Positions 7,355 through 45,405 of a stretch of DNA of 48,907 bases are shown piece by piece (positions within the stretch are counted from its first letter, which is position 1; each line of letters opens with the position of its first letter). The DNA is from Prevotella sp. (GTDB lineage Bacteria; Bacteroidota; Bacteroidia; Bacteroidales; Bacteroidaceae), in assembly GCA_017556145.1 (NCBI GenBank), contig JAFZCU010000174.1:1-48907 (forward strand), in the 5' to 3' direction. A program made the position numbers and the translations under genes. The notes beneath the pieces were generated by a model. It was not told the origin of the DNA, did not search any database, and saw nothing but the letters and a program-made list of their open reading frames with translations.

Positions 7355-10300
7355 ATGTGGAATTTTAAATCACAAAAGCTCTCGGCTTTGTTGTTTCTGT
7401 TCCTGCTCTGTTTGTTCCCCATGGGAGCAATGGCTCAGGGCGTCGTAAAGGGAACGGTAAATGATGAGGCTGGTGAACCGGTCATCGGTGCCACCATCAA
7501 AGTACAGGGTACCAACGAAGGTGCGATTACCGATTTCAACGGTAACTTTAGTATTCAGGCTGCCAGCAATGCAACCCTGAGAATTACGTATGTCGGCTAC
7601 GAGTCCCAGGACGTCAACGTCAATGGACGTAGCAACATCAACATCGTACTGAAGGAAGACAACACGACGCTGAACGACGTTGTGGTCATCGGTTACGGTA
7701 CGATGAAGAAGAAGCTGGTGACAGGTGCTACTGTTCAGGTGAAGGGTGATGACATCGCCAAGCTGAACACCACCAATGCACTCGAGGCCATGCAGAGCCA
7801 GACTCCTGGTGTGCAGATCACCCAGAGTTCTTCTCAGCCTGGTAAGGGCTACAAGGTTTACATCCGTGGTATCGGTACCACAGGTAATGCCACACCGCTC
7901 TATGTTATCGACGGTGTAGCTGGTGGTAGCCTTGACGGTATCAACCCGAACGATATCGAGAGCATCGACGTGCTGAAGGATGCTGCTTCGGCTGCCATCT
8001 ACGGTGCACGTGCTGCTAACGGTGTGATCCTGGTTACAACCAAGCAGGGTAAGGCTGGTAAGGTGGAACTCACCTACAATGGCGCCATGGGTTGGTCAAA
8101 CGCCTACAAGCGTCCGCAGCTGCTCAATGCCAAGCAGTACATGACCATCATTGATGAGTACACCTTCAACACTTCTGGTCAGAAGATGGATTGGGCCGGC
8201 TATGTTCCTGCCGACATTCTGAACAAGGTTGCTAATGGTTGGGAAGGCACTGACTGGTGGGGCGCATTTGAGAATAAGAATGCCGTACAGCAGAATCATT
8301 CTGTAACCCTGACCGGTGGTACAGACCGCAGTAAGTTCGCTATGTCTTACACCTATACTGGTAATGAAGGTATCATGGGTGCTGACAGAGCTTCTTACTA
8401 CAAGCGTCACACCGTCCGCCTCAACAGCGACCACGTGCTCCTGAAAGCCAAGGACTTCGATGCCATCACCATCGGTGAGAACATCTCAATCGGTTACAGC
8501 AAGAATCACGACCTGGCTGAGGGCGGTATGTACTGGAGCTATATCCACAGCCTGCTGCAGACTTGTCCGCTTGTTCCACAGTACGCTGACAATGGCGACA
8601 TCTATTATTATCAGGACTTTGAAGGAGACAGCCCAGTTAAATATGGTAAGGGCTGGAACGCTTCTTTGTTCAGCAACCCATGGGAGAACCTCGAAAAGGG
8701 TGGTTTCGGTTCTATGGCAGAGAGCCGCAGCATCAATACCGCCGCTACTGCTTTCCTGATCATTCAGCCTATCAAGGGTCTGAGACTCCGTTCTCAGTTC
8801 AACTATAATTGGAATTCTGGTGGCTATCGCAGCTATGGTGAGCCGGTATCTTCTGGTTATGGTAATGCCACATCTCCTGTATATAATGTAAGCCAGAACG
8901 CTTGGTTGAGTACAGGTTGGTCAGTTGAAAATACCCTGACTTATGATCTTCCTATTTTCTCTGGTCATAAGATCAGCGCTATGGTCGGTCAGACTTTCCA
9001 GAGCAGCGCTTGGAGCTTTAACGTTGGCGGAGATAACAAGGTTAACTATGGCGAGCAGCTCGCAACACTGAAGGGTTGGGATTCTGCATGGCTGTCTAAT
9101 TTCAGCACAGACCTCGGCAATGCCCATCTGAATGGTAAGCCCAATGATGAGGAATATCTCGCTTCTTGGTTCGGCCGTCTGACTTGGGACTACAACGAGA
9201 AGTATATGGCTACCGTTACCATGCGTTACGATGGTTCAAGTATTTTCACGGATGGTAAACGTTGGGGTGTCTTCCCATCTGTATCTGCAGGTTGGGTAAT
9301 CAGCAATGAGCCATTCATGTCAAGCACCAACAGCTGGATGGACTTCTTGAAGATCCGCGCATCTTGGGGTCAGAACGGTAACTGTTCTATCGATAAGTAT
9401 CAGTATCTGGCTACCATCGCTCTGTCAGGCGACGCTGGCGACAGCGGTTACAAGTTCGGTTCAGACATGGCTACCTCTGTTGCTGCTAAACCAAACGTAG
9501 GTGCTTATGCAAACATCGTACCGAATCCTGACCTGACTTGGGAAACTTCTGAGCAGCTCGACTTAGGTTTCGACGCCCGTTTCCTCAACAACCGTTTAGG
9601 CTTGAACTTCGACTGGTATAAGAAGACCACGAAGGACTGGCTGATCTCAGGTAACCTGCTTGCTGTATATGGTACCAATCCTGCTGCCATCAATGGTGGT
9701 GATGTGGAGAACACTGGTATTGAGATCGCCCTTACTTGGAACGACAAGATCGGTAGGGACCTCAGCTACAACATCGGCGTGAACTTTGCTACCAATAAGA
9801 ATAAGGTAACCCGTATCGCTAACGACAACCACTATATCAATGGTGATAGCGGTGTGCTCTCACAGGGTACTGAGTACTGCTACCGTGCTGAGGAAGGCTA
9901 TCCTATCGGTTACTTCTATGGCATGTCTTACAGCGGTATCTGGCAGAATCAGGAGCAGATTGACGCTGCCCGTAAAGCCGGCAAGGCTGTTCTTGACAAC
10001 GCACAGCCTGGTGACTGCATCTGGGATGACTGGAATGGTGATGGTGTGCTCACCTATGCAGAAGGTGAAGATTGTGACCGTCATGAGATCGGTAATCCTA
10101 ACCCCGATATCATGCTGGGTGTTAACCTCGGCTTGAGCTACAAGGGCTTCGACTTCGCTATCAACGGTGCCGGTGCATTCGGTCAGCAGATCATGCGTTC
10201 ATACCGTTCATTCAGTGACGCTCCTTATCAGAACTATGATACCACGATCCTGAACCGTTGGGTTGGTGAAGGTTCTACAAACGAGCAGCCACGCATTTCA

Positions 10301-10597
10301 AGTACTGGTAGTGAGAATACCAACTGGGTATCTACCCGTTATATGGAGGATGCAGACTACTTCAAGATCAAGACTGTAACCCTCGGTTACGACTTCAAGA
10401 ACATCTGGAAGGGTTGCCCATTCCAGCAGCTCCGCTTCTATGTTCAGGCTCAGAACCTCTACACCTTCACCGGTTACACCGGCCTCGATCCTGAGGTAGG
10501 TAACAATGCAGGTGGTCGTGGTTGGGCTTCTGGTATCGACCTGGGTCTCTACCCGCCGTCTCGTACATATTTGGTAGGTGCAAGTATTAAATTCTAA
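7355..10597 (+). CDS. susC: SusC-family TonB-dependent outer-membrane transporter
   Basis: 1080 residues, imports oligosaccharides across the outer membrane with its SusD partner using TonB energy. A signal peptide (about 1-27, ending GAMAQG) is followed by the carboxypeptidase-D-like domain (GVVKGTVNDEAGEPVIGATI..., about 29-110), the TonB-box region NDVVVIGYGTM, the plug domain (ALEAMQSQTPGVQI...YVIDGVAGG...DAASAAIYGARAANGV) and a long barrel ending in the aromatic residue of GASIKF. It is full length. It is first in an operon with susD (15 nt gap) and a surface lipoprotein. Given the surrounding enzymes the cargo is probably decorated xylo-oligosaccharides. Confidence 0.97.
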   Translation: MWNFKSQKLSALLFLFLLCLFPMGAMAQGVVKGTVNDEAGEPVIGATIKVQGTNEGAITDFNGNFSIQAASNATLRITYVGYESQDVNVNGRSNINIVLKEDNTTLNDVVVIGYGTMKKKLVTGATVQVKGDDIAKLNTTNALEAMQSQTPGVQITQSSSQPGKGYKVYIRGIGTTGNATPLYVIDGVAGGSLDGINPNDIESIDVLKDAASAAIYGARAANGVILVTTKQGKAGKVELTYNGAMGWSNAYKRPQLLNAKQYMTIIDEYTFNTSGQKMDWAGYVPADILNKVANGWEGTDWWGAFENKNAVQQNHSVTLTGGTDRSKFAMSYTYTGNEGIMGADRASYYKRHTVRLNSDHVLLKAKDFDAITIGENISIGYSKNHDLAEGGMYWSYIHSLLQTCPLVPQYADNGDIYYYQDFEGDSPVKYGKGWNASLFSNPWENLEKGGFGSMAESRSINTAATAFLIIQPIKGLRLRSQFNYNWNSGGYRSYGEPVSSGYGNATSPVYNVSQNAWLSTGWSVENTLTYDLPIFSGHKISAMVGQTFQSSAWSFNVGGDNKVNYGEQLATLKGWDSAWLSNFSTDLGNAHLNGKPNDEEYLASWFGRLTWDYNEKYMATVTMRYDGSSIFTDGKRWGVFPSVSAGWVISNEPFMSSTNSWMDFLKIRASWGQNGNCSIDKYQYLATIALSGDAGDSGYKFGSDMATSVAAKPNVGAYANIVPNPDLTWETSEQLDLGFDARFLNNRLGLNFDWYKKTTKDWLISGNLLAVYGTNPAAINGGDVENTGIEIALTWNDKIGRDLSYNIGVNFATNKNKVTRIANDNHYINGDSGVLSQGTEYCYRAEEGYPIGYFYGMSYSGIWQNQEQIDAARKAGKAVLDNAQPGDCIWDDWNGDGVLTYAEGEDCDRHEIGNPNPDIMLGVNLGLSYKGFDFAINGAGAFGQQIMRSYRSFSDAPYQNYDTTILNRWVGEGSTNEQPRISSTGSENTNWVSTRYMEDADYFKIKTVTLGYDFKNIWKGCPFQQLRFYVQAQNLYTFTGYTGLDPEVGNNAGGRGWASGIDLGLYPPSRTYLVGASIKF

Positions 10598-10612
10598 TTC
10601 GACAAATAAGTT

Positions 10613-12559
10613 ATGAAGAAATATATTTTATCATCGTTAGCTGTTTTGTCAGCAGCTACTATGTTCACATCCTGTAACGATATGCTGGACACTGATCCGC
10701 GTGTTACAGAGTTGACTGCTGCTACATTCCCTGGCAAGCCTGGAGATGTAGAGGCATTGAATGCAGCTACCTATAGTATCATGAATACGCTGGGTGGCGG
10801 CGACCAAAGTGGTATCTTGAATAATCCTTTCTACTGGTGGTCACTCATGTCTGACGACTGCTACGGAAGTGGCGGTCTGCAGGACAATGTGGCTAAGTCG
10901 CTGCATCATTTCACAACTGCAAGTGCTAACCAGTATGAGCAGGATTTCATCCTTCTCTATGGTGGTATCTCACGTGCCAACAACCAGATTGAGACCATCG
11001 ACAATGTTCAGTGGACCGAGGCTCAGAAGGCTCAGCGCAATCAGCTGCTCGGTGAGGGTTATTTCATGCGTGGTTTCTATACGCTCCTTCTTACCCAGAT
11101 GTACGGCGATGTACCCCTGATTACCTCTACCGTTATTACTGACGAGATGCTGGAGCAGGTAAGTGCTGAGGAAGTTATCTACCCGCAGATTCTTTCAGAC
11201 TTCGTTTCTGCCAAGAATCTCATGAAGCCGGAGAGAGCTAACGGTTCAGGTCATGCTGACAAGTATGCTGCCGAGGCTTTCATTGCACGCGCCTATATGT
11301 TCTGGGCAGGCTTCTACAAGGGTGTCGGTGAGTTGGCTACTGGTGATGCAACGATCGAACTTGTAGAACAGGAGGGTTGCACCGAGGGTTCTCTTAATAA
11401 AGCTAAAGTTACAGATTATCTTAGGGACATCGTAGCTAATGGTGGTTACAAGCTCTGTGAGGACTTCCGTTCACTCTGGCAGTATTCTAACAGTCTGCTT
11501 TGGGATGAGGCTCACGATGGTCCAGATGGTGGCAATGCTGAAGGCACTCATGCATATGCTTTCATCGCTGACATGAAGCGAGAGAATTGCTTTGACCAGC
11601 CTGGTATGGGTAACGGTAACACCGAGGAAATCTTCCAGATTCAGTTCATGAACGCTTCTAACTGGAACATTAGTGGTACATACAACAATGCGCGTATGTA
11701 TTCAAACTACCTCTCTTGCTTCTGGGGCCTTCGTAACGGTGCTACCAATGACAATGGTCGTCGCGACAAGACATATCCGTTCAACCAGGGTTGGGGTCAG
11801 GGTACACCTTCCTGCAATCTTTGGGATGACTGGACAGATGCTGAGAGAAATGGTGGTACGAATTCTTATACTGACATTCGTAAGCTCGCTTCTCTGATCG
11901 ACCTTGATAATGAGCTCGAGGGCTATACCTACGAGAAGGACGACAACGAGGAGTCTGGCTATGCTGTCAAGAAGTATGCTGATGTAAACCTTGATGCTTG
12001 CGCTAAGGACAACAATTCTTGGTGGTCAATGTGCGATGGCTATACTGGCAGTTCGCTTGCTAATGAGCAGCAGGGTGACCACTTCGAGGATTACTACCTG
12101 ATGCGTTATGCTGACGTGCTGCTGATGTTGACCGAGCTTACTGGTGATGCTCAGTACATGAACCTGGTTCAGCGTCGTGCTGGTGTTCCTGAGACAGGTT
12201 ACTCTTTGGCAAACGTTCAGAACGAGCGTCGCTGGGAGTTCGCATTGGAAGGTCTGCGTTTCAACGATATGCGTCGTTGGTCGGGTAAAGACAATCACAG
12301 CGAGAACTCATACGCCGCTAAGGCTCTTCAGGCTCAGAACGGTAAGATGATTGTATGCTATGGTCAGAAGGGTTCTAAGGTTCCTATGAAGCACATGACC
12401 ATTGATAATAATGGATGGGCTAAGCGTTATGCTGATACCAAAGGTTTCTTGCCGAAGCCTCAGCGTCAGATTACTTTGATGACTGGTAAGTTGAAGCAGA
12501 ATCCTGGATGGGATGAGAACGCTTCTCCTGCAGAGTACACATATAAAGTTCTTTATTAA
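10613..12559 (+). CDS. susD: SusD/RagB-family outer-membrane glycan-binding lipoprotein
   Basis: 648 residues. The signal peptide ends in a lipobox (MFTSC, Cys21), so the protein is lipid-anchored. N-terminal NDMLDTDPR and the helical TPR-like fold signatures (RGFYTLLLTQMYGDVPLIT, then AEAFIARAYMFWAG and FEDYYLMRYADVLLMLTE) are typical. The C-terminal part contains NERRWEFALEGLRFNDMRRW, which is strongly conserved in the family. It forms the lid of the SusC transporter and binds the glycan. It lies 15 nt after susC and is about 100 residues longer than the archetype SusD, as in many complex-glycan loci. Confidence 0.96.
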   Translation: MKKYILSSLAVLSAATMFTSCNDMLDTDPRVTELTAATFPGKPGDVEALNAATYSIMNTLGGGDQSGILNNPFYWWSLMSDDCYGSGGLQDNVAKSLHHFTTASANQYEQDFILLYGGISRANNQIETIDNVQWTEAQKAQRNQLLGEGYFMRGFYTLLLTQMYGDVPLITSTVITDEMLEQVSAEEVIYPQILSDFVSAKNLMKPERANGSGHADKYAAEAFIARAYMFWAGFYKGVGELATGDATIELVEQEGCTEGSLNKAKVTDYLRDIVANGGYKLCEDFRSLWQYSNSLLWDEAHDGPDGGNAEGTHAYAFIADMKRENCFDQPGMGNGNTEEIFQIQFMNASNWNISGTYNNARMYSNYLSCFWGLRNGATNDNGRRDKTYPFNQGWGQGTPSCNLWDDWTDAERNGGTNSYTDIRKLASLIDLDNELEGYTYEKDDNEESGYAVKKYADVNLDACAKDNNSWWSMCDGYTGSSLANEQQGDHFEDYYLMRYADVLLMLTELTGDAQYMNLVQRRAGVPETGYSLANVQNERRWEFALEGLRFNDMRRWSGKDNHSENSYAAKALQAQNGKMIVCYGQKGSKVPMKHMTIDNNGWAKRYADTKGFLPKPQRQITLMTGKLKQNPGWDENASPAEYTYKVLY

Positions 12560-12578
12560 TTTATAATAAGTAAATAAG

Positions 12579-13331
12579 ATGAAAAAAATATTATTTTTGC
12601 TCGTTGCCGCAGTTTGCTCTTTTGCTGCTTGCGATCCTATTCATGAGGATATCAGCAATAACAGTAAAATTACTGCTGACGAGCTCAAGGCAAAGACCAC
12701 TATCTCCGTTGATCAGGCCAATGGTCAGAATGGTAATGTTATTACCTGTCAGACCTCAGCAGCAGTCAATGCTGTGTGGAACATTGGTGGCAAGGAATTT
12801 ATTGGTAATTTTGCAAAGAAGAAAATGAAGCTCGGTGAGCATAAGGTAATTCTGACTGCTCTTTGTGCCGATGGTACCGTGCTGAAGGATAGCGCTATTA
12901 TCAATTGTCAGGTAATCACCGACCCACTTGAGAAGATTTATATCTATGGCGATCCCAAAAAGGAACAAGAACCAGCAGTTCTCGGCCCTGGTGATGCTGC
13001 TGCAGGACGCTTCAGTGATAATGAAGGTAAGTTCTTCCCATACATTTCTGATGATGTTTACTTTGGTAAAAAGACGCTTATCTTTGAAATTATTGCTGCA
13101 GAAGAGGGTAAATTCATTTGGGGTGACGATTTTGGCTGTACTTGCCGCGTAATGAACGGTTGGTGGAGCACTGCTTATGAGGATAACTACCCTCTATCTG
13201 TAGGTTTGTGGGAACTTCCCATCACTGATCAGATGGCTGCTGAGTGCGCTAGGGGTGGTGAAGGCCGTGACTTAGACATCTTGATGACACGTGGTTCTGT
13301 AACTATCAAGTCCGTATACTACGAGGAATAA
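12579..13331 (+). CDS. Surface glycan-binding lipoprotein (SusE/F position)
   Basis: 250 residues. The signal peptide ends FAAC (Cys18) followed by Asp-Pro. The mature protein begins with an Ig/PKD-like region (ITADELKAKTTISVDQANG, then CQTSAAVNAVWNIGGK) and a C-terminal beta-rich domain rich in Trp and Tyr (FIWGDDFGCTCRVMNGWW), residues often used to stack on sugars. It is third in the susCD operon, 19 nt after susD, and is followed by a strong terminator. The position and anchoring fit a surface glycan-binding protein. The sequence does not match a carbohydrate-binding family I can name. Confidence 0.8.
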   Translation: MKKILFLLVAAVCSFAACDPIHEDISNNSKITADELKAKTTISVDQANGQNGNVITCQTSAAVNAVWNIGGKEFIGNFAKKKMKLGEHKVILTALCADGTVLKDSAIINCQVITDPLEKIYIYGDPKKEQEPAVLGPGDAAAGRFSDNEGKFFPYISDDVYFGKKTLIFEIIAAEEGKFIWGDDFGCTCRVMNGWWSTAYEDNYPLSVGLWELPITDQMAAECARGGEGRDLDILMTRGSVTIKSVYYEE

Positions 13332-13355: not shown

Positions 13356-13390
13356 AAAGAGGGCATATCATTTTGATGTGCCCTCTTTTT
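13356..13390 (+). terminator. Intrinsic terminator of the susCD operon
   Basis: AGAGGGCATATCA pairs with TGATGTGCCCTCT around a 4-nt TTTT loop, directly followed by a T run (13386-13390). It lies 25 nt after the lipoprotein stop. Confidence 0.85.
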
Positions 13391-13419: not shown

Positions 13420-13451
13420 TTTGGGGATTCTAAATATTGTTACTACCTTTG
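13420..13451 (+). promoter_or_regulatory. Promoter of the DUF6057/haem-motif operon
   Basis: TTTG (13420-13423), a 20-nt spacer and TACCTTTG (13444-13451) form a consensus Bacteroidota promoter. The ATG at 13475 lies 23 nt downstream. This shows that the longer upstream-extended frame (from 13373) is not the real start. Confidence 0.8.
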
Positions 13452-13474: not shown

Positions 13475-15244
13475 ATGAATAAAACAAACAAAGTATCGGA
13501 TGCCATTCTATATGGAAGTCTGCTGACTTTTATTTTGTTTGTCGTATATATCCTATACATCAATCAGGATGTGTTCTATACAGCACACGACCGTTCCGAA
13601 TTCATTTTCGGAGCACCCTTCTTCCATACGCTCATGTCAAAACCCTTTGGTCTGATGCGTTATGTAGGAGCCTGGCTCACGCAGCTGTTCTGTGAGCCTG
13701 CCGTAGGTTCCGGAGTGATGGTGGCTATCTGGGGTCTCATATTCTTGGTGGGAACCAAAGCATTCCGGTTACAGCCCAGTGCCTCGGCGCTGATGCTTCT
13801 GCCTGTAGCCTGTCTGCTCACGTCGGTAGTCGATCAGGGCTATTGGATCTATATCTCCACCATCAGAGGTTATTGGTTCTCGCAGTCTGTAGGTTATCTG
13901 GTCATGTTGCTGCTATTGTGGGCTGCTCGTTACACCCCACGCAAATGGCATATCGTCTGGTATGTGTTCGCCGTTTGTATCTATCCGGTGCTGGGATGGT
14001 TTGCTTTGCTTTTCGTGCTCTGTTTAGCGCTGACAGAGAAACCCACTTGGCGGGAGCTTGTGGGTATCATCCTGCTCCTTTTTACCGCCAGCATCTGGCA
14101 TACGCAGGTGTATTCGAATCTGAGATTCAACGATGTGGTACTGGCAGGCCTGCCTCGTTTCGAGACACCCACGGATACCATCAAGCACCTCTCCATCCCG
14201 TTCTTGGTGCTTGGTATTGTTTCATTGCTCATCCCATTTGGTAAGAAGTTAGCGGATACTCCTCTTACCTCATACCTCTTACCTCTTATCTCTTCTATTG
14301 CAGGCATCGTCTTCACCTCGTCATATATGTTCCAAGACCAGAACTACATCGACGAAATGCGCATGGTGCGCTATGCTTCTGATAACAACTGGAAGGAAGT
14401 TCTTCTGCTGGCAGAAGATAATAAGAAGCCAACCAGTACAATAGTCTTTCTTAAGAATGTTGCGCTGATGAATGAAGGTGGCCTACTCGACCGTTCGTTT
14501 AAGAATGGTAACATCGGTTTTCCTATTTACAATCCTGATACGCTCCATGTCTCTTTCTTGGAAATAGCATCCCCTTTGGTCTATTACAACTACGGCATGA
14601 TGAATGAATCCATCCGTCTGAATTTCGAACTTGCTGTTCATTACGGTTTCTCACCCTTCTACTTGAAGACGCTTACTCGCTGCGCCTTGGCCGTAGGAGA
14701 TAAAAAACTGGTAGAACGCTATACTACCATATTACATCATCGTCCGTTTTACAGTGACTGGCAACCGGCTCCTGTCACAGAAAAGATTAAGGAATTGCAA
14801 AAGTGCTATCCCGATGAACTCACAGGCGTTGAGAATAGCGATAGTTATATTGTCAACAATGTCAGCCTCTGGTATGAATCCGACAGTAAAGTGGTTTCAG
14901 AACAGGCATTGTTCTATGCCATGTTACGTTGTGATTCCCGCCGCTTCTGGCCTTCGTTGCGCAATTATGTAAAGTCGCACATGGATGAGCAATTTCCTCT
15001 GCATGCTCAGGAGGCTTATATCTTGTTTATGGATAAGGCCCCGGAAGAAAAACGTGTGATGATTCCCGTTGAGGAGACAGTTTTCAATCGCTATAAACAG
15101 TTTTTAAATGTTATGGCAAAACTGGTAAAGCCAGGAAAGACTCTTGGACAGGTTGCTGAAGAAATGGCTGAAGAATGGAGAGATACTTATTGGTATTATT
15201 TCTTTTTCGGAAGACAATATTCTGGTGCAGTTGGCCCCCAATAA
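13475..15244 (+). CDS. DUF6057-like polytopic membrane protein with C-terminal helical-repeat domain (copy 1)
   Basis: The start MNKTNKVSDAILYGSLL at 13475 is chosen because the promoter lies just upstream; 589 residues. The first 290 residues carry about nine hydrophobic segments (for example LLTFILFVVYILYI, VMVAIWGLIFLVG, SVGYLVMLLLLWAA, IAGIVFTSSYMF). The remaining soluble half contains TPR-like helices (MRMVRYASDNNWKEVLLLAE, SIRLNFELAVHYGFSPFYL). The function is unknown. It is similar in layout to the product of 16784-18190, so the pair probably arose by duplication. A fivefold 7-bp tandem repeat at 14262-14296 lies in a membrane segment. The next gene is a haem-motif propeller lipoprotein 20 nt downstream. 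Confidence 0.8.
   Translation: MNKTNKVSDAILYGSLLTFILFVVYILYINQDVFYTAHDRSEFIFGAPFFHTLMSKPFGLMRYVGAWLTQLFCEPAVGSGVMVAIWGLIFLVGTKAFRLQPSASALMLLPVACLLTSVVDQGYWIYISTIRGYWFSQSVGYLVMLLLLWAARYTPRKWHIVWYVFAVCIYPVLGWFALLFVLCLALTEKPTWRELVGIILLLFTASIWHTQVYSNLRFNDVVLAGLPRFETPTDTIKHLSIPFLVLGIVSLLIPFGKKLADTPLTSYLLPLISSIAGIVFTSSYMFQDQNYIDEMRMVRYASDNNWKEVLLLAEDNKKPTSTIVFLKNVALMNEGGLLDRSFKNGNIGFPIYNPDTLHVSFLEIASPLVYYNYGMMNESIRLNFELAVHYGFSPFYLKTLTRCALAVGDKKLVERYTTILHHRPFYSDWQPAPVTEKIKELQKCYPDELTGVENSDSYIVNNVSLWYESDSKVVSEQALFYAMLRCDSRRFWPSLRNYVKSHMDEQFPLHAQEAYILFMDKAPEEKRVMIPVEETVFNRYKQFLNVMAKLVKPGKTLGQVAEEMAEEWRDTYWYYFFFGRQYSGAVGPQ
14262..14296 (+). repeat. 7-bp tandem repeat (about five units) inside the first DUF6057-like gene
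   Basis: Units CTCTTAC, CTCATAC, CTCTTAC, CTCTTAT, CTCTTCT follow without gaps. Because 7 is not a multiple of 3, gain or loss of one unit would shift the frame. Confidence 0.6.
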
Positions 15245-15264
15245 CGAAATAGCTACAAGAAATA

Positions 15265-16776
15265 ATGAAAAGAATGATCCATACCTATACGCTGCTTTTG
15301 GCTATTGCCTTGCTACTCATAACATCGTGTGTGAGCCACCCCGATGTACCTTCTTCGGCCAAGGAAACCAAATGCCTACCAGCCATCTTTCCCGATTATT
15401 GCGATATCACAGTGCCTTGCAATATTGCACCACTTAACTTCATGCTTCCTGCTGATGAGTACGAAGCATGTGTGGCACGTCTCATTACGCCCATTGGCCA
15501 GCAGCAGACCTATGGTAATGGCGTAAAGGTTCAAATTCCTGAGGAGGAATGGCATGCCATGCTCGATGCCTCGAAGGGTAAAAGCATCAAGGTTGAGGTC
15601 TGGGGGAAGAAAGAGGGTGAATGGTTATCGTTCAGTCCCTTTGAAATACATGTAGCCAAAGAACCAATCGATGACTATCTGTCGTACCGTCTCATTGAAC
15701 CGTCGTATATCCGATATGACTATATGGAGATAGCCCAGCGTAACCTCACGTCTTTTGAAGAGACACAGATATTCAATAACAGGGTTACTTGCGACGATGC
15801 CAAAGGCCAGTGCATCAACTGTCATAGTTATCAGAACTACAAGACAGACAACATGCTCTTTCACGTGCGCGTCACCCGTGGTGGTACAGTTATTGTGAAT
15901 GATGGTAAAATATCAAAGGTGGATTTGAAGCGTGACTATACCATCTCTTCAGGCGTCTATCCATCATGGCATCCTACCGCTAAACTCATAGCTTTCTCGA
16001 CCAACCAGACACACCAAAGTTTCCATACAGCAAATCCTAATAAAACTGAGGTCTATGATCTTGCCAGCGACCTGATTCTCTACGATATTGCCACCGATTC
16101 GGTAAGCGTCATCAGCAACGATTCCACGCTGTTGGAGGTGTATCCTACTTGGTCGCCCGATGGCAAATACCTCTATTACTGCAAGTCTGTTCCTTTGCCC
16201 GAGGAGATGCAGGGGCAGGACATCAGAACCACCTATGCGAAAATACAGTATAACCTCTATCGTCGTTCGTTTGATTTGGCGTCGCACGGTTTTGGAGAAG
16301 AGGAACTCGTCTATGACGCTGCCTCAGCAGACAAGAGTGTTTCCCTGCCACGTATCAGTCCCGATGGGCGTAATCTGCTGTTTGCCCTTGGACAGTATGG
16401 TTGTTTTCATATCTGGCACCATGATGCCGACATTGTCTGTATTCCATTGGACCGATTTGATGGCACAGCCCTCACCGCAGAAACTTCTTCTGTCATTGAT
16501 CTCACCCATCTCAATAGCGTTGGCTATCCCGATAGTTACCCTTCATGGTCGAGCAACGGCCATTGGATGATGTGTGCCAGCCGACGTGAAGATGGTAATT
16601 ACAGCCGTGTCTATTTTGCCTATTTCAACAATGGGAAAGTAGAAAAAGCTTTCTTGTTGCCGCAGGAAGACCCCGAACTGCATATCAGTCTTCTGAAGAG
16701 CTATAATCGTCCGGAGTTCATGGTGGAACCCGTCAAGATCAGTGTTGAAGAGTTCAGTAAGGTGTTTGACAAATAA
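15265..16776 (+). CDS. Beta-propeller (PD40/TolB-like) lipoprotein with a CxxCH haem-attachment motif (copy 1)
   Basis: 503 residues. The signal peptide ends LLITSC (Cys22), giving an envelope lipoprotein. An N-terminal domain (about 35-170) is followed by GQCINCHSY (Cys183, Cys186, His187), the pattern for covalent c-type haem. The rest is a propeller with repeated PD40 blades: VYPSWHPTAKLIAFST, VYPTWSPDGKYLYYC, LPRISPDGRNLLFAL, SYPSWSSNGHWMMCAS. The role is unknown: electron transfer, sensing or a structural haem are all possible. It is paired with DUF6057-like proteins on both sides and has a paralogue at 18187-19674. The CxxCH could instead bind another ligand if the cell lacks cytochrome c maturation. 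Confidence 0.8.
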   Translation: MKRMIHTYTLLLAIALLLITSCVSHPDVPSSAKETKCLPAIFPDYCDITVPCNIAPLNFMLPADEYEACVARLITPIGQQQTYGNGVKVQIPEEEWHAMLDASKGKSIKVEVWGKKEGEWLSFSPFEIHVAKEPIDDYLSYRLIEPSYIRYDYMEIAQRNLTSFEETQIFNNRVTCDDAKGQCINCHSYQNYKTDNMLFHVRVTRGGTVIVNDGKISKVDLKRDYTISSGVYPSWHPTAKLIAFSTNQTHQSFHTANPNKTEVYDLASDLILYDIATDSVSVISNDSTLLEVYPTWSPDGKYLYYCKSVPLPEEMQGQDIRTTYAKIQYNLYRRSFDLASHGFGEEELVYDAASADKSVSLPRISPDGRNLLFALGQYGCFHIWHHDADIVCIPLDRFDGTALTAETSSVIDLTHLNSVGYPDSYPSWSSNGHWMMCASRREDGNYSRVYFAYFNNGKVEKAFLLPQEDPELHISLLKSYNRPEFMVEPVKISVEEFSKVFDK

Positions 16777-16783
16777 GTTGTAG

Positions 16784-18190
16784 ATGAAGGATATACGTCT
16801 GTTATGTACGCTTCTTTTCGGTGTGGCGGTTCTCCTCTTCTTCGGACTGGCCTATCCGCATCATCTGCATTATCAGGAGCAATTCCAGCTTTTCCTTTTC
16901 GATAGCACCTATGTGTGGGAGGTTGTTAAGCTGCCAGGGGGTGTTGCCGATTTGCTGGGACGTTTCTGCACGCAGTTTTTCCTGTTTGCTTGGATAGGAG
17001 CGTTGATTATCGCGCTGCTGCTCTCGGCGGTGCAACTTCTGACGCTCCGCCTGGTCAGCGCACAGGGGGTCAGGAACGATGTGACATCTGAGATATCACA
17101 CGCGTTCCTGACCCCCTGTGCGCTGAGTTTTGTGCCTTCGTTCCTGCTTTGGCTCTTCTTGCTCGATGAGCATGCGTTGCTGGGTGGTGTCTGGGCTGTT
17201 CTACTTACTCAGATCGCTTTATGGGGACTTATCCGGTTGCCAGACGGATGGTTGCGCCGCATTTTGATGATTGTCGCCTTTATGGCACTCTATTGGGTAG
17301 CCTTCGGTGGTAGCCATTATTATCGTTACCCGACAGTATTCCCCACGCTGCTCTATGTCGCATGGCTGCTTGCTGTCGCCCTCCCCTTCGTGGTTCGTGT
17401 CTTACACAAGTGGGCCGCTGCTTCGAGACGTCCTGTTGTAACGTTTGCCTCCTTTGCACTGGTAGCCCTCGTGATGGGTAGTCTCGTCTGGAAGAACGCT
17501 AATTTCAAAGCCGAGAAGGTGATGGCGTATGACTTTATGGCCTGTCACCAGCAATGGAACCGCATACTGGAGACCGTCAGCAAAGAGAAGCCTAACAACC
17601 AGATCGGTGTGACGGTGCAGAATCTTGCCCTGGCGATGCATGGCCAGCTCGCCGACCACCTGTTCGATTTTAACCAGAACGGAATTTCCGGTCTTCTGCC
17701 CGATGTCCAGAGCGATGCTACCAGTCCGATGCCTACAGCCGAGGCATTCTATCAGCTGGGTATGATTAATGTTGCCCAGCGAACGGTATTTGAGGCACAG
17801 GAAGCCATTCTTGACTTCCAAAAGAGTGGCCGATGCTACAAACGACTGGCACAGACCAACCTGATCAACGGCAACTACGAAGTGGCTCGCAAATACCTCA
17901 TGGCACTGCAAAAGACTCTTTTCTATCGTGACTGGGCCAACGAGACGCTACCGTTGTTGGGAAATGAAAAGGCGATAGCCAACCATCCAGAATATGGACG
18001 CTTACGCCAATGGGCCTACAAAGAAGACTTCTACTTCAGTGACCATGTGACCCCTGAGATGCTCGAAAGTCTCTTCTGGGGCAATACGGACAATCGCCTG
18101 GCCTTTGAATATCTGAAGGCCTACTATATGTTGACGAATGATCGCGAAGGCTATGCCAAATTATTACTTCAAACCTCTGCTAAGCAATGA
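16784..18190 (+). CDS. DUF6057-like polytopic membrane protein with C-terminal helical-repeat domain (copy 2)
   Basis: 468 residues, starting MKDIRLLCTLLFGVAVLLFF 7 nt after the preceding lipoprotein gene. About nine hydrophobic segments fill the first 240 residues and a soluble TPR-like part follows (AEAFYQLGMINVAQRTVFEA, YKRLAQTNLINGNYEVARKY). It resembles the product of 13475-15244 in topology and in motifs such as PFYSDW/LFYRDW within the repeat domain. A perfect 24-bp palindrome (17055-17126) is built into the coding sequence between two membrane segments. Its stop overlaps the start of the next gene (ATGA), indicating translational coupling to the second haem-motif lipoprotein. Function unknown. 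Confidence 0.8.
   Translation: MKDIRLLCTLLFGVAVLLFFGLAYPHHLHYQEQFQLFLFDSTYVWEVVKLPGGVADLLGRFCTQFFLFAWIGALIIALLLSAVQLLTLRLVSAQGVRNDVTSEISHAFLTPCALSFVPSFLLWLFLLDEHALLGGVWAVLLTQIALWGLIRLPDGWLRRILMIVAFMALYWVAFGGSHYYRYPTVFPTLLYVAWLLAVALPFVVRVLHKWAAASRRPVVTFASFALVALVMGSLVWKNANFKAEKVMAYDFMACHQQWNRILETVSKEKPNNQIGVTVQNLALAMHGQLADHLFDFNQNGISGLLPDVQSDATSPMPTAEAFYQLGMINVAQRTVFEAQEAILDFQKSGRCYKRLAQTNLINGNYEVARKYLMALQKTLFYRDWANETLPLLGNEKAIANHPEYGRLRQWAYKEDFYFSDHVTPEMLESLFWGNTDNRLAFEYLKAYYMLTNDREGYAKLLLQTSAKQ
17055..17126. repeat. Perfect 24-bp inverted repeat with 24-nt loop inside a coding sequence
   Basis: 17055-17078 (core AGGGGGTCAGGAACG) is the exact reverse complement of 17103-17126. The loop contains a further GTGA...TCAC pair. 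The centre GGGTCAGG/CCTGACCC resembles the GGGACAGG/CCTGTCCC palindrome at 2714-2773, which has the same loop length. In frame it encodes a polar loop between membrane helices. Confidence 0.85.
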
Positions 18191-19674
18191 AACGGAATAC
18201 GATTTTACCTTTTTACCTTTTTACCTTTTTACTTTTCCTCGCTGCCTGTACGGAAATGGTCAGCGATGCAAGGCAGGAGAACGTTCAACCTCAGATATAC
18301 CCCGACTATCTCGGTGTCACCATACCCGTGAATATTGCCTCTCTCTGCTTCAGCATGGCGGATGAGACGGTACAGTGTATCGATGCCGTCATCACAGACA
18401 GTCATGGACACAACCTGCACAGCCAGGGCGAAGAATCAGTTGATTTCGACCTTGACGACTGGCATATACTGCTCTCGCAGAATCGTGGCGACTCCCTCAG
18501 TGTAACCGTTTCAGCCAAGTATGACGATGGTTGGCATACCTATCGTCCTTTCTCCATCTACGTGAGTCCTGACAGCATCGACTACGGTATCTGCTATCGT
18601 TTGATCGAGCCAGGCTACGAGGTGTGGAGTAAAATGGGCATTTACGAACGCGATCTCTCCTCGTTCGATGAGCGTCCGCTGATTGAGAATACGCAGTTCG
18701 AGGGTTGTGTCAACTGTCATAGCTTCAACCGTGGCAACCCTGCCGATATGAGCCTTCATATCCGTGGCCCGCATGGTGCCACACTGCTGCGTCATGACGA
18801 TAGTCCGCTTATCGCCTACAACACCAAGACCGATCAGACGCTCGGCCTGTGTGTCTATCCCTACTGGCATCCTTCAGGACACTACATTGCCTATTCCACT
18901 AACACTACGAGGCAGTTGTTCCACAGTGCCGACAGCAGTCGCATCGAGGTCTTCGATGAAGCTTCCGACCTCCAGGTCTACGACGTTGAAAAGAATGAGT
19001 TGCTGCTTTCGCCCCTGCTTAAGCAGGACTCCATCTACGAGACTTTTCCCGTCTTTTCTGCCGATGGCCGTTCGCTCTATTTCTGTTCGGCCAGCGCCCT
19101 CCCAGAAGGCAGTCTTAAGCTCGATTCGATCCACTATAACCTCTGCCGCATTGATTTCGATCCCGCAACGGGCACCTTCGGCAACCGTATAGACACCATT
19201 GTCGATGCAGCGTCTCAACACAAGTCAGTATCTTTCCCACGGCCCTCATACGATGGGCGTTTCCTTTGCTACACGCTCTCCGATTACGGACAGTTCAGCA
19301 TCTGGCATCACGAGGCCGACCTCTGGCTGCTCGATCTTGCTACAGGAGAGAGCCGTCCTATGACGGAGGCTAACTCCGAAGATACCGAGTCGTTCCACAA
19401 CTGGAGCACCAACTCGCGCTGGCTCGTATTGAGTTCCCGTCGCGATGACGGTCTCTTCACACGGCCCTATTTCTGTCACGTCGATGCCGATGGCACAGTC
19501 AGTAAGGCCTTCATGCTGCCGCAACGCAATCCGCGCCGTTTCTACCGCGAACGTTTCTTTTCTTTCAATGTGCCCGAATTCATCATCTGTCCAACCCGTT
19601 TCGACGTTCACAAGGCCAGCCGTATCATCCGCGATGAATCCCGCAAGAACTTTGGTGTCCGTAAATATGACTAA
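18187..19674 (+). CDS. Beta-propeller (PD40/TolB-like) lipoprotein with a CxxCH haem-attachment motif (copy 2)
   Basis: 495 residues, overlapping the previous stop by 4 nt. The signal peptide ends FLAAC (Cys21). The haem-type motif is EGCVNCHSF (Cys174, Cys177, His178), followed by SLHIRGPHGATLLRHDD and propeller blades VYPYWHPSGHYIAYST, TFPVFSADGRSLYFCS, SFPRPSYDGRFLCYTL, SFHNWSTNSRWLVLSS. The order of domains and many motifs (QIYPDYLGVTIPVNIASL versus AIFPDYCDITVPCNIAPL; SIWHHEADL versus HIWHHDADI) match the paralogue at 15265-16776. Three perfect 8-bp repeats lie in the signal peptide coding region and could switch the gene by slippage. A terminator follows 38 nt downstream. Confidence 0.82.
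   Translation: MKRNTILPFYLFTFLLFLAACTEMVSDARQENVQPQIYPDYLGVTIPVNIASLCFSMADETVQCIDAVITDSHGHNLHSQGEESVDFDLDDWHILLSQNRGDSLSVTVSAKYDDGWHTYRPFSIYVSPDSIDYGICYRLIEPGYEVWSKMGIYERDLSSFDERPLIENTQFEGCVNCHSFNRGNPADMSLHIRGPHGATLLRHDDSPLIAYNTKTDQTLGLCVYPYWHPSGHYIAYSTNTTRQLFHSADSSRIEVFDEASDLQVYDVEKNELLLSPLLKQDSIYETFPVFSADGRSLYFCSASALPEGSLKLDSIHYNLCRIDFDPATGTFGNRIDTIVDAASQHKSVSFPRPSYDGRFLCYTLSDYGQFSIWHHEADLWLLDLATGESRPMTEANSEDTESFHNWSTNSRWLVLSSRRDDGLFTRPYFCHVDADGTVSKAFMLPQRNPRRFYRERFFSFNVPEFIICPTRFDVHKASRIIRDESRKNFGVRKYD
18209..18232 (+). repeat. 8-bp tandem repeat (CTTTTTAC) x3 in a signal-peptide coding region
   Basis: Three perfect CTTTTTAC units, preceded by a partial one (ATTTTAC), encode the hydrophobic core of the lipoprotein signal. 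A change of one unit would shift the frame, as in classic slipped-strand phase-variable genes. Confidence 0.75.
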
Positions 19675-26507: not shown

Positions 26508-27329
26508 ATGAAGAAGTATCGTACTGCCATCATCCTGTTTCTGGTGTTCGAAGTCATTGCCGTTTGGCTTTGGCTGTCGACTGGAAACCTGTTCTTCCTG
26601 CTCAATTTCTCCTATATAGGCATCTCCATTGGTCTTGGAGGCGTATTAATGGCAGCAGGCTGGAAATATGGTCGCGAACTGACTCAGTTCCTGGTCGGTT
26701 TATATATGCTGGTATTCCTCGGCCTGATCTGCAGGGAGAATATGCAGATTGAGGGATTCTGGTTCTACTTGGCATCAGGCATCTTCGGCGGTGCCACGCT
26801 CCACTATCTCATCGCCAAGATCTTCGGTCCGTTGTTCTTCGGCAGGGGTTGGTGCGGCTATGCCTGTTGGACGGCTATGATCCTCGACCTGTTGCCCTAT
26901 AAAACGCCTAAAAGCGGCAGGCGCAAGTTGGGATTCATCCGCTACATCATGTTTGCACTTTCGCTGGCCATTGTGGCGGGTTTGTTCCTGATGGGTGAAG
27001 CCAATCACGCCACCATGTTTACGCTCTTTGTGGCTGGAAACGTGTTCTACTATGTCGTGGGTATCACGCTGGCTTTACTTTTCAAGGATAATCGCGCATT
27101 CTGCAAGTATATCTGTCCGATAACGGTATTCCTCAAACCGATGAGCTACTACTCGCGGCTACGTATCCGCTGCGATGAGAGCAAGTGTATCAAATGCGGC
27201 AAGTGCCTTAAAGTGTGCCCGATGGATGTAGAGGTTTGTAACGACTCCCGCCATCGCAAGAACGCCACAGAGTGTATTTTGTGCCAAAGCTGTACGAAGG
27301 CCTGTCCTGTCAAGGCATTATCCCTATGA
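26508..27329 (+). CDS. NapH/CcoG-like membrane ferredoxin with two 4Fe-4S clusters
   Basis: 273 residues. Five or so membrane helices (AIILFLVFEVIAVWLWLS, FSYIGISIGLGGVLMA, FLVGLYMLVFLGLI, MFALSLAIVAGLFLM, FYYVVGITLALLF) surround two family motifs, GRGWCGYACW and FCKYICPITVFLKP. The cytoplasmic tail has two cluster motifs, CIKCGKCLKVCP and CILCQSCTKACP. Homologues pass electrons between quinol or flavin partners and periplasmic or metalloenzyme acceptors. The local partner is unknown. It is interesting beside the CxxCH lipoproteins encoded 7 kb upstream, but no direct link is shown. Confidence 0.88.
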   Translation: MKKYRTAIILFLVFEVIAVWLWLSTGNLFFLLNFSYIGISIGLGGVLMAAGWKYGRELTQFLVGLYMLVFLGLICRENMQIEGFWFYLASGIFGGATLHYLIAKIFGPLFFGRGWCGYACWTAMILDLLPYKTPKSGRRKLGFIRYIMFALSLAIVAGLFLMGEANHATMFTLFVAGNVFYYVVGITLALLFKDNRAFCKYICPITVFLKPMSYYSRLRIRCDESKCIKCGKCLKVCPMDVEVCNDSRHRKNATECILCQSCTKACPVKALSL

Positions 27330-32645: not shown

Positions 32646-38340
<5,695 letters not shown>

Positions 38341-38349
38341 ATGATGATT

Positions 38350-41052
38350 TTATTTGATAATTATCTTCTTACCATTCTTAATATAAATACCAGGACGGAG
38401 TGAGTTCTTCGTGAGCGAAGCGTCTCCTGATGTCGCCGAGCGGCTAGTGTTATAGCGATGGCCATTCAAGTCGTAGATGACAGTGGATTTCGTGCCGTCG
38501 GCATTGACAATGCTGATGCCATCGACAACGTTTTCTCCCTTGGCGAAGACGGGCAGCAGAGTCACGATGTCATCGGGCATGGTGAAGGTTAGTCGTGAGT
38601 TACCGTTGGAAAGCGTCTCAAGACTGATATTAGTTCCCATGGTGAAGTTTACTCCGTTGATGACGCGCAGTTCCTTCAGTCCGTAGCCGCTGTTGGCCTC
38701 GATGCTAAGCGTGACGGTTTGCCCTTCTACAGCCTCAGTGACATCAGCGGTCACTGAGCCGTAGTTGGCCTTGCGCACGAATATCTGATACTTCTCGGAC
38801 TCCACGTCGGCAGGGGTGTAGATGATCTGGTCAATGTACATGGAGATGCCACCAGTGTTGGTGAGCAGCAGGTTATTCTTGCCTGCTTTCAGGGTGGTGG
38901 TGAAGGTGGCTTTACGCCAGTCGTTTTTAGCCGTCTTCTCGATGTCGAGCTGGGTAGCGGAGCCGTTGACAGTGACTTTCATCTTTCCAGCCTTCGCGGA
39001 ATTGCTGTAGCGCACGGAGATGCGGTATTCGCCCTCCTCGCCATCACGGAGTGTGAGCTGGTGGCGCAGGGTGCCGCTGGTGCTGGTATCCATATCGACG
39101 AAGCCGTTGCCGGCAAACTCGACGATGTCGGGGAAATAGTTCACATAGGGATTCACGAGCTTGATTTCCTTCACGCTCTTATAGTCCATGTTCTCGGCCT
39201 CGATGATGATTTCACCATGATAGAGGGGAGCCTCCCCTAGCCCCTCCAACTGGAGTGGAGCCTTTGCTGGCGCCTCTTTTCGGTCTGTAGCACTGCCTGC
39301 GCAGTTAACGGTGATGTAAACGCCGCCCTTGTGTTTCACAGTCAAGGTGTAGGTGGATATTTCGGCATCCCACTGGGCGGTGGCACTACCCGTAGCCAGC
39401 AGGCCTTTCTTCATGGTATACGAAGGTTCGGCTGTGGCACCTTTGACGACAATGGTCTCGGCTACAACAGTTGTGGTGTCAGTGCGGAAGTTGTTCAGGT
39501 AGAAGTCGATATGGTCGGCATACTCACGCACGATACCACTGCCGAGCATCCCAAGGGTCAATGTCAGCGAGTCACAGGTGTTGTAGAGAAGAGGAACTTT
39601 GCCCGTAGCTGTCCGCTTGCTGTTGAGATAGGTGTAGGGCATATAGGTGACGAGTTGGTTCTGCACGCGTGAGACAAAGAGATCGCCCTCTGACAGCACG
39701 GGGTATTGTTCGTTGAATACCTTCTGTTTCTTTGCAAAGGTGCTCCAGTTCGACTTTGCCGTAGCACGGTTCAGCTTCACGGGGATGGTCTTGGCCAGCG
39801 AGTCGTACAACTCTACGCAAAGAGGAATGGTGCGATAGCGGCCCGTGCTCTTGAAGTAGCAGTTGTTATTCATCCACTGTCCGTCGCCCTTGTTCGTAGG
39901 ATCATTCTGCTTGTAGAGTCCGTCGAAGAGCGTGCCCCATGTGGCGTACTTATCCTCGTCGCTGCCCGACGTGGTGTTGGCAATGATGGCGATGCGGGTG
40001 CTGTCGATCACTTCCTTGCGCGTAGGAATATATAAGGTACCGTCAATCACCTTGCGCCACATATCAATCCACGCACCTCGGAACCCCTCATAAGTAGTCC
40101 AGTTGCGACGTGTATAGCCGTCGACGGTGCTCTTGTTACTCTCTTTGAAACATTCGTCGGGAATAGTCTCAGGTCCATCCCACACGGCACCACCATTCAC
40201 ACCACACTGCTCCATCGTGGTGCCGATGCCGGCGGCAATGGGATACTTCGCTTTGTTCTGACCAACGGCTTGGTCCATCGCACCACACCAGCCGCAGCGG
40301 TCGTAGCGCACACCGTAGTTCTTAGCTAGTCCGCTGATAAAGGGCGAAAATGTCGTGCTCTCTGCATTGTAGAAACACCAGGGTTGGGTGTACTTATACA
40401 ACCAGAGGATGGCCTCAGGATATGCGCGACAGGCTTTCAGCAGATTGCTGTTGCGCTTCATCATGCCGACAGGACTCAGACCATGGCTCCAGATGTTGCC
40501 GCAGAACGAAATGGTAAGGAAGCCACCGTACTCATGTGACATCTTTACCAGATTGGCAAACAGCGCTATCTGTCCTGTCTGCGTAGCTGAGCCCATGTCC
40601 GCATCGTCGAAGCCCCAGAATTGCTCGGCGAAATTCCAGCCGAGGAAGTTGGGATAGCGTTTGAAGAAATACTCAAACGTCTCCAGGTCGGTGGTCTGCA
40701 AGTGCGTGCGACCGCCCGAAGCTGGCTGACAGGTGAACCACATACCATTCTGCTGGCACACCGAGGCCCATGACTTATACGTCCTCACAGCCGAGCGTGG
40801 CATCTTATAGACATTTTTCTCCTTGTCGTATTGGCATGACAGACTCAGGTTCATGCATACCCACGGCTTAATGTCGTCGGGCACCAAGTCGATAATCTTC
40901 TGCGGATCGGCTGCATTCCAAACATCGATGTGGATCATCCACAGCGGGTGCTCGTTGTCAATGGGACGGCGTGACTGAGCCCCTATAGGGCTAATGAAAA
41001 AATGTAAAAATGAAAGAATAAAAAAGAAGGAGACAATCTGTAATCGTTTCAT
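38350..41052 (-). CDS. GH98 family endo-acting enzyme with CBM6/35-like module and C-terminal sorting domain
   Basis: 900 residues with a signal peptide (about 1-25, ending PIGAQS). The GH98 catalytic domain is seen from PIDNEHPLWMIHIDVWNAAD and QKIIDLVPDDIKPWVCMNLS, through WFTCQPASGGRTH and FLGWNFAEQFWGFDD, where the acidic residues are likely catalytic. A CBM6/35-like beta-sandwich follows (about 610-745, IIIEAENMDYKSVKE...). A repeat-type Ig domain comes next, then a C-terminal tail DLNGHRY...LRPGIYIKNGKKIII, resembling Bacteroidota secretion-sorting ends. GH98 includes blood-group endo-galactosidases and endo-xylanases that cut highly branched corn xylan. The neighbours favour the xylanase role. 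It lies 14 nt after the GH115-GH43 gene. Confidence 0.88.
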   Translation of the reverse strand: MKRLQIVSFFFILSFLHFFISPIGAQSRRPIDNEHPLWMIHIDVWNAADPQKIIDLVPDDIKPWVCMNLSLSCQYDKEKNVYKMPRSAVRTYKSWASVCQQNGMWFTCQPASGGRTHLQTTDLETFEYFFKRYPNFLGWNFAEQFWGFDDADMGSATQTGQIALFANLVKMSHEYGGFLTISFCGNIWSHGLSPVGMMKRNSNLLKACRAYPEAILWLYKYTQPWCFYNAESTTFSPFISGLAKNYGVRYDRCGWCGAMDQAVGQNKAKYPIAAGIGTTMEQCGVNGGAVWDGPETIPDECFKESNKSTVDGYTRRNWTTYEGFRGAWIDMWRKVIDGTLYIPTRKEVIDSTRIAIIANTTSGSDEDKYATWGTLFDGLYKQNDPTNKGDGQWMNNNCYFKSTGRYRTIPLCVELYDSLAKTIPVKLNRATAKSNWSTFAKKQKVFNEQYPVLSEGDLFVSRVQNQLVTYMPYTYLNSKRTATGKVPLLYNTCDSLTLTLGMLGSGIVREYADHIDFYLNNFRTDTTTVVAETIVVKGATAEPSYTMKKGLLATGSATAQWDAEISTYTLTVKHKGGVYITVNCAGSATDRKEAPAKAPLQLEGLGEAPLYHGEIIIEAENMDYKSVKEIKLVNPYVNYFPDIVEFAGNGFVDMDTSTSGTLRHQLTLRDGEEGEYRISVRYSNSAKAGKMKVTVNGSATQLDIEKTAKNDWRKATFTTTLKAGKNNLLLTNTGGISMYIDQIIYTPADVESEKYQIFVRKANYGSVTADVTEAVEGQTVTLSIEANSGYGLKELRVINGVNFTMGTNISLETLSNGNSRLTFTMPDDIVTLLPVFAKGENVVDGISIVNADGTKSTVIYDLNGHRYNTSRSATSGDASLTKNSLRPGIYIKNGKKIIIK
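39223..39260. repeat. GC-rich dispersed-type palindrome inside the GH98 gene
   Basis: GAGGGGAGCCTCCCCTAGCC continuing with CCTCCAACTGGAGTGGAG matches the same CTCCCC/GGGGAG repeat class as 34457-34482. In frame it encodes PLQLEGLGEAPL in the linker before the CBM6/35-like module. Confidence 0.5.
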
Positions 41053-41066
41053 GTCAACACAAGCTT

Positions 41067-45302: not shown

Positions 45303-45327
45303 ACTATGCATTTTTGTTTCACGGTTG

Positions 45328-45335
45328 CAAAGGTA
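45328..45335 (-). promoter_or_regulatory. -7 element of the GH115-GH98-GH59-GH2 operon
   Basis: Reverse-strand TACCTTTG (45335-45328) followed by CAACC, 25 nt before ATG 45302. The expected -33 region lies in the terminator hairpin of the upstream gene. Confidence 0.65.
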
Positions 45336-45336
45336 C

Positions 45337-45380
45337 AATAAAAAACATGCAACGACCATAGAATTTCGTTGCATGTTCTT
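45337..45380 (-). terminator. Intrinsic terminator of the large surface-protein gene
   Basis: On the reverse strand AACATGCAAC (45377-45368) pairs with GTTGCATGTT (45353-45344) and continues as TTTT. It lies 29 nt after the stop at 45406 and overlaps the next promoter. Confidence 0.8.
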
Positions 45381-45405
45381 TGAAAAATGTTTCAAACAGA
45401 TGTGA

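Follow-up and report, generated by a model that had tools for sequence, protein, structure and literature searches.

In a rumen bacterium that lives by fermentation, what role could a c-type haem have beside a sugar importer? The question is raised by a four-gene unit in contig JAFZCU010000174.1 of Prevotella sp. (GenBank assembly GCA_017556145.1), whose full stretch of 48,907 nucleotides was analysed and is called the window here. The genome carrying it is a draft (83% complete, 5% contaminated), and its relatives are rumen Prevotella. In the region 13475-19674, four genes lie on the + strand in the order M1, L1, M2, L2, where M is a membrane protein of the DUF6057 family and L is a lipoprotein with a propeller and a CxxCH motif. 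Our preferred reading, to which we give a probability of roughly 45%, is a two-protein envelope module in two copies, with one c-type haem per L, accessory to SusCD.

According to this reading, CcsB/CcsA would attach one c-type haem to each L, and His200 of L1 (15862-15864, + strand), chosen for the conservation of its column, may be the second axial ligand. L would be on the periplasmic side, where it would dock on M's TPR-like end, and the M-L pair would act as an accessory of the neighbouring SusCD-type uptake system, with two heterotypic pairs in the window. The haem would have a redox function, as relay or sensor, or a structural one, as a clamp; our guess is that sensing or a low-demand electron relay is likelier than glycan cleavage.

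Conservation of the motif and pairing of the two genes

L1 (15265-16776, + strand) has an N-terminal domain and a propeller that is TolB-like in its structure model, and its CINCH motif occupies residues 183-187 (15811-15825, +). L2 (18187-19674, +), recognised by PF07676 and by likeness to L1, contains CVNCH at residues 174-178 (18706-18720, +). Both exceed the cut-off of PD40 (PF07676; 52.1 bits for L1 and 27.2 bits for L2, cut-off 20.9), and they are 36% identical over 478 columns. CxxCH is found in two of the 26 non-overlapping open reading frames (ORFs) of at least 150 amino acids in the window, which are L1 and L2. For comparison, 80 named relatives were retained from 178, and the counts of related loci below refer to these; their L1 identity is 75–83%. 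All 80 L1 orthologues and 67 of 69 L2-class ORFs keep CxxCH, while it occurs in 3 of 512 other ORFs of at least 300 amino acids in these loci.

A wider set of fetched homologues covering the propeller, from which rows with more than 25% gaps there were left out, holds 221 non-identical L rows. CxxCH is present in 219 of them (189 of 191 when thinned at 90% identity), and near-invariant columns include Asn185 (220 rows), His200 (218) and Arg202 (221), the near-invariant His lying 13 residues past CxNCH. One exception is the L2 orthologue of locus L079 (10839-12251; 79% identical), in which a short in-frame gap falls exactly over CxxCH and M2 is still there; another is L186 (3062-4459), a diverged lone L at the end of a very long branch, which has no CxxCH and no M beside it. 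A third, beyond the 221-row set, is the remote L of L026, with the motif region missing and likewise no adjacent M. The conservation counts and the rarity in other ORFs rule out a chance occurrence, and they bear out the original prediction that the motif is under selection; loss of the motif in most homologues, for which that prediction proposed a check, is not the case.

The Cys at the lipobox place (residue 22 of L1) is found in 98.4% of 191 representatives. A crude count of lipobox and surface-signal patterns (105 of 173 pass) was set aside, the pattern having often taken a later Cys. We infer that the L proteins are exported, and export together with CxxCH would class L as a c-type cytochrome by sequence. 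Covalent haem on L is probable.

The two families were then counted in 247 Bacteroidales genomes drawn evenly across the order. L is present in 27 genomes, M in 27 above the cut-off and both in 26, counts that are uncorrected for kinship. In detail, the L search matched 30 genomes, three of which (G340, G425, G434) had the propeller only and were dropped, and the M search matched 29 at an E-value of 1e-5, 27 of them above the cut-off. The exceptions are G399, with a partial L only, and G034, with M only, at a contig end in a 61%-complete genome. The proposed co-occurrence of both families is supported. In a survey of the phylum, 5 of 247 genomes matched at 1e-20, and three have a full-length L, including the window's own genome.

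The genes also lie side by side. A same-strand M is found within 700 bases of at least 53 of 62 L places (46 with M upstream and 7 with it downstream), and an adjacent L is lacking at 7 of 61 M places by listed coordinates, a number that may in truth be smaller. These counts by coordinates are lower bounds because at most six L and five M candidates were scored per genome; they omit 6 of 68 L places (propeller only) and, for M, six second fragments and three rows below the cut-off. Reading 60 loci of the order with automatic frame choice, by which the L of L184 was missed, showed an M beside 50 of 57 L frames and an L beside 51 of 57 M frames. The M genes beside L173 and L175, and the L beside the first M of L148, came to light only when the regions themselves were read. 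In rumen Prevotella, and in some of the other Bacteroidales, M and L are inherited together.

Probable haem attachment and the metal-site alternative

A check for cytochrome c maturation genes in the host genome was proposed with the original observation, and they are there: nrfA, ResB and CcsA (PF01578) genes stand in a row at L094, that is, nrfA beside ccsB and ccsA, and further ResB or CcsA matches lie elsewhere in the genome. The row rules out an absence of maturation genes in the host. In the order, PF01578 is found in all 27 L-bearing genomes and in 170 of 220 others (p 0.002), and within the genus in 118 of 124 L-bearing genomes and 63 of 75 others (p 0.011), both uncorrected for kinship. 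Six L-bearing genomes of the genus lack PF01578 (G523, G561, G612, G666, G593, G657), of which G523, with ResB and nrfA, is Ccs-positive all the same. The M-L module brings no Ccs genes of its own. In Bacteroides thetaiotaomicron, a cluster of CcsA, a thiol oxidoreductase and a peptidase M75 is reported to rise more than 100-fold under iron depletion, and the nrf-ccs cluster to fall 30- to 36-fold (PMC10434189). The Ccs genes of this species are thus bundled with other clients.

Several observations weigh against the haem-bearing module. In the L1 model the motif belongs to a strand of blade 1 that is modelled with low confidence (blocks with pLDDT 53 and 70) rather than to a cytochrome c helix, and a Pfam scan of L1 and L2 gave no cytochrome c family match up to an E-value of 1, which separates L from the class I cytochrome c domain. 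L is without adjacent M at 9 of 62 places and in 7 of the 57 frames read; three of these seven (L195, L196, L199) are partial or at a contig end, and an M fragment lies near L165. Lone M genes stand at L187, L203 and L204. The motif is retained where no M is adjacent, at least in L169 and L178, and L079 has lost the motif and keeps M2, so a tie between motif loss and M loss was not upheld. Eight helices and an inside N-terminus would place the TPR end of M in the cytoplasm, beyond the reach of L. Moreover, G561 and G612 (both 99% complete) have no PF01578, no PF05140 over the cut-off and no full CcsBA match, and neither PF05140 over the cut-off nor full CcsBA was found in G666 (92% complete), G593 (87%) and G657 (85%). 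CxNCH is present in all 8 L genes read (of 10) from G561 and G612 and is kept in one L gene read (of two) from G657. Tyr replaces His200 in one L gene each of G561 and G612, whose L proteins are 82–97% identical; as close relatives, these two genomes are little more than one case.

Four of these genomes (G561, G612, G666, G657) keep a di-haem oxidoreductase (DHOR) with two CxxCH motifs beside a partial CcsBA frame, which covers the central part, about positions 220-455 (L231 2796-5116, L232 2742-5062, L234 2848-5185, L235 839-3105). A similar arrangement is found on contig C125 (L233) of the window's genome, which has Ccs elsewhere. An imelysin gene precedes DHOR in L231. The presence of DHOR without a maturation enzyme suggests an unrecognised attachment route, an assembly gap, or haem loss in both families. 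Because DHOR is retained, the lack of detectable Ccs may not equal a lack of haem attachment.

The same observations bear on the likeliest alternative, in which CxNCH and the following His form a metal site (e.g. zinc) or a disulfide site stiffening blade 1, and M and L have a structural or docking function with no redox role. It would account for a motif that persists where CcsA/CcsB are not detected, that the model places in a strand and that lies in a protein with no cytochrome family match, and for an Asn no less invariant than the Cys (220 of 221), which is unusual for a plain haem motif. But DHOR is kept with its two motifs beside the CcsBA remnant in the four genomes above, maturation genes are commoner in L-bearing genomes, and in a Ccs-positive cell the maturation system would probably accept an exported CxxCH chain as its substrate. 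We regard such a metal or disulfide site as rather unlikely.

Membrane partner, neighbouring genes and further alternatives

Upstream of the four genes, SusC, SusD and a lipoprotein resembling a surface glycan-binding protein (SGBP) form a separate unit (7355-13331, + strand), recognised by the SusC/SusD families and, for the SGBP, by neighbour conservation. An SGBP-like gene stands 5' of M1 in 75 of 80 related loci; it is not found there in L003, L019, L040, L042 and L061, the first four of which are cut by a contig end in M1 or a short way 5' of it. Three further M-L pairs in the window's genome have varied neighbours. The L091 pair lies between a CBM-bearing protein and a CotH protein, the L092 pair between a ribAB-type (riboflavin-synthesis) gene and an aminotransferase gene, and the L093 pair behind SusC and a C10 peptidase with a Spi inhibitor domain. 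In other families 19 further regions were read, of which 9 had a SusC label. Because of these varied neighbours, we describe the pair as a movable accessory that frequently, though not in every case, stands next to SusCD.

This distribution bears on a second alternative, a private link of Tol-Pal type, or one that energises uptake, in which L would be an adaptor resembling TolB that joins M in the inner membrane to SusCD in the outer membrane, and CxxCH would be secondary. The propeller model of L1 is consistent with it, but L1 and L2 score 30.1 and 25.6 bits with the TolB model (NCBIfam TIGR02800) against a cut-off of 343.15, and pairs also occur away from SusCD, as at L092. Unlike TolB, L is a lipoprotein with CxxCH and is paired with DUF6057. 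Such a link is improbable.

M1 (13475-15244, + strand) was assigned by PF19529, an AlphaFold2 model (pLDDT 82.8) and hydropathy, which gives 8 membrane helices; its start is taken as the ATG at 13475, and the mechanical ORF opens at TTG 13373. M2 (16784-18190, +; 468 amino acids) is the second DUF6057 protein. Both are members of PF19529 (M1 232.4 bits, M2 433.8 bits in two stretches, cut-off 29.8), with 23% identity over 226 columns. M2 of the window is without part of the membrane half found in longer M2 orthologues, and full-length M2 ORFs span 451–590 amino acids. In the M1 model the membrane part weakly resembles GT-C glycosyltransferases and is followed by TPR-like helices, in agreement with the TPR-bearing partner proposed originally. 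Electron transfer through M, proposed as well, is not supported, as no His column of the membrane half is above 40%; M is unlikely to be a haem-b or cysteine-based membrane redox protein, the best His column there reaching 40% and the best Cys column 41%.

Could M instead be an active GT-C glycosyltransferase with a TPR domain that modifies glycans or proteins of the envelope and has L as its acceptor or regulator? Eukaryotic TMTC enzymes are GT-C glycosyltransferases with a TPR domain, and the model has this order of parts. But all structural matches of M to GT-C have Z below 8, a range where chance arrangements occur, and a Foldseek search with the M model gave no match at an E-value of 0.001; the M profile against sequences of solved structures gave nothing credible. 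GT-C enzymes have a conserved acidic residue in the first outer loop, but in the membrane half of M no acidic column reaches 75% (the best are 73% at residue 32 and 71% at residue 120, among 130 representatives, many of them from Prevotella). An active enzyme would also leave the conserved CxxCH unexplained, and we find it quite improbable. The metal or disulfide site, the Tol-like link and the glycosyltransferase each partly overlap our preferred reading.

Oxidative or redox cleavage of plant glycan by a haem propeller, an earlier suggestion, is very improbable: xylan-type genes do follow (GH43 and an esterase by Pfam, GH3 named by eye) and the L propeller has many near-invariant polar residues, but a close GH3 copy (at least 80% identity) lies downstream in just 3 of 80 loci (L008, L016, L049; up to 8 kb fetched), the terminators are separate, pairs stand beside C10 peptidase or CotH genes in the window's genome, and the host is a fermentative anaerobe. 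By the same count the module tracks uptake genes more than xylan enzymes, and the suggested tie to the latter is not supported.

A more far-reaching version of the preferred reading combines two proposals. In it, a GT-C-fold scaffold with helical repeats would hold a TolB-like propeller with a single c haem, and heterotypic pairs would redox-gate or report on SusCD uptake; the lineage of G561 and G612 would moreover place c haem on L and DHOR without CcsA/CcsB, by an unknown route perhaps involving the retained central CcsBA segment. As a whole this version is a long shot.

Transcription, origin of the tandem and known systems

The gaps between the genes are 20 bases (M1-L1) and 7 bases (L1-M2), and M2 and L2 overlap by 4 bases. 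In related loci, gaps of at most 60 bases are found in 78 of 78 cases for M1-L1, 55 of 67 for L1-M2 and 59 of 60 for M2-L2. The prediction of an own promoter and terminator agrees with a Bacteroidota-type promoter, an exact match to TTTG-N20-TACCTTTG, at 13420-13451 (+) and with hairpins at both ends. One is an intrinsic terminator closing the SusC-SusD-SGBP unit (13356-13388, +; -22.6 kcal/mol, z -7.9, T run on the 3' side), and the other, with nine T, closes M1-L1-M2-L2 (19712-19746, +; -10.9 kcal/mol, z -3.5). The window has 4 exact sites of the promoter pattern against 0.49 expected. The pattern occurs 5' of M1 in 22 of 80 regions, the window included (shuffled mean 0.15), and an exact match is absent from the other 58. 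As for the consensus of E. coli type, a promoter scan of the window listed none at 13420.

"Tandem duplicated", the original description, is right as to the M-L-M-L order and the likeness of the copies (given above), but not as to a recent duplication. In a maximum-likelihood tree of L (80 rows, midpoint root only), L1 groups with the three other L genes of the window's genome, and L2 groups with the second-position L of G298 and G472 (L147, L148), from two other families, which likewise have M-L-M-L behind SusCD. The split between the two branches has a support of 94/91. Because L1 and L2 sit in separate old branches, a recent local duplication in the window is rejected; these lineages carry a heterotypic tandem that combines both branches. 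Elsewhere the genes have duplicated locally: the two L of the M-L-M-L run in G445 (L163), from another family, are sisters and form a homotypic tandem.

Generally, M2-L2 follows L1 in the related loci; it is inverted as a unit in L043 and lies about 4.3 kb away in L030 and L031. In L039, L042 and L044 a divergent lipoprotein (47–48% identity) stands in place of the second. In L037 and L038, M2-L2 was not found downstream of L1, where runs of similar frames of about 350–415 amino acids with signal-like starts stand instead (five in L037, 9753-15823; three in L038, 9753-13542). A DUF4369 protein lies between the SusCD unit and M-L-M-L in L147 (5366-5956) and L148 (4509-5105), and a frame resembling it precedes M in L218. 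In L049 (17010-17509), the first 166 residues of a GH3 protein are identical to the window's and stand behind an extra divergent M-L pair. Elsewhere in the window, a 4Fe-4S ferredoxin-type protein lies near glycan genes (26508-27329), and five large consecutive ORFs of 900–1442 amino acids occupy 32646-48894 on the - strand.

Among known systems, the L profile matches TolB-type, peptidase and other propellers in the sequences of solved structures, with a best E-value of 1e-5. Hydrazine synthase alpha (PDB 5c2v) carries two haems, one in the middle domain that follows the propeller and the other in the C-terminal domain, whereas L1 and L2 each have a single CxxCH, which the model places in blade 1. 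Cytochrome cd1 nitrite reductase NirS shares the combination of propeller and c haem and matches L in Foldseek at E-values of about 1e-7 to 4e-6 (TM-score about 0.3), but its eight-bladed propeller holds haem d1 and its cytochrome c domain is separate. Closer in plan are five distant propeller proteins of Bacteroidota (575–753 amino acids), which keep C[GA]NCH at the same place before the propeller and have an N-terminal segment like that of L; a sixth, L135, was read in its later part only. They differ from L by a C-terminal TPR in the same chain, above the cut-off in L100, L101, L103 and L133 and below it in L134. No paper mentioning DUF6057 was found in the literature searched, and nothing describing the M-L pair came from searches that joined PD40 to CXXCH or to Prevotella, or haem propellers to SusD or lipoproteins. 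The propeller, CxxCH and DUF6057 are parts of known kinds; within this literature, no account appears to exist of their pairing, of the motif's location or of the heterotypic tandem.

DUF6057 is a family of unassigned function, and its conserved partner with a haem motif offers a direct and cheap test. If haem is absent from L, the family would show the limits of CxxCH as a haem sign in Bacteroidota; if it is present, L would hold a c haem in an unusual location, within a propeller blade. The M-L pair points to an unstudied envelope complex.

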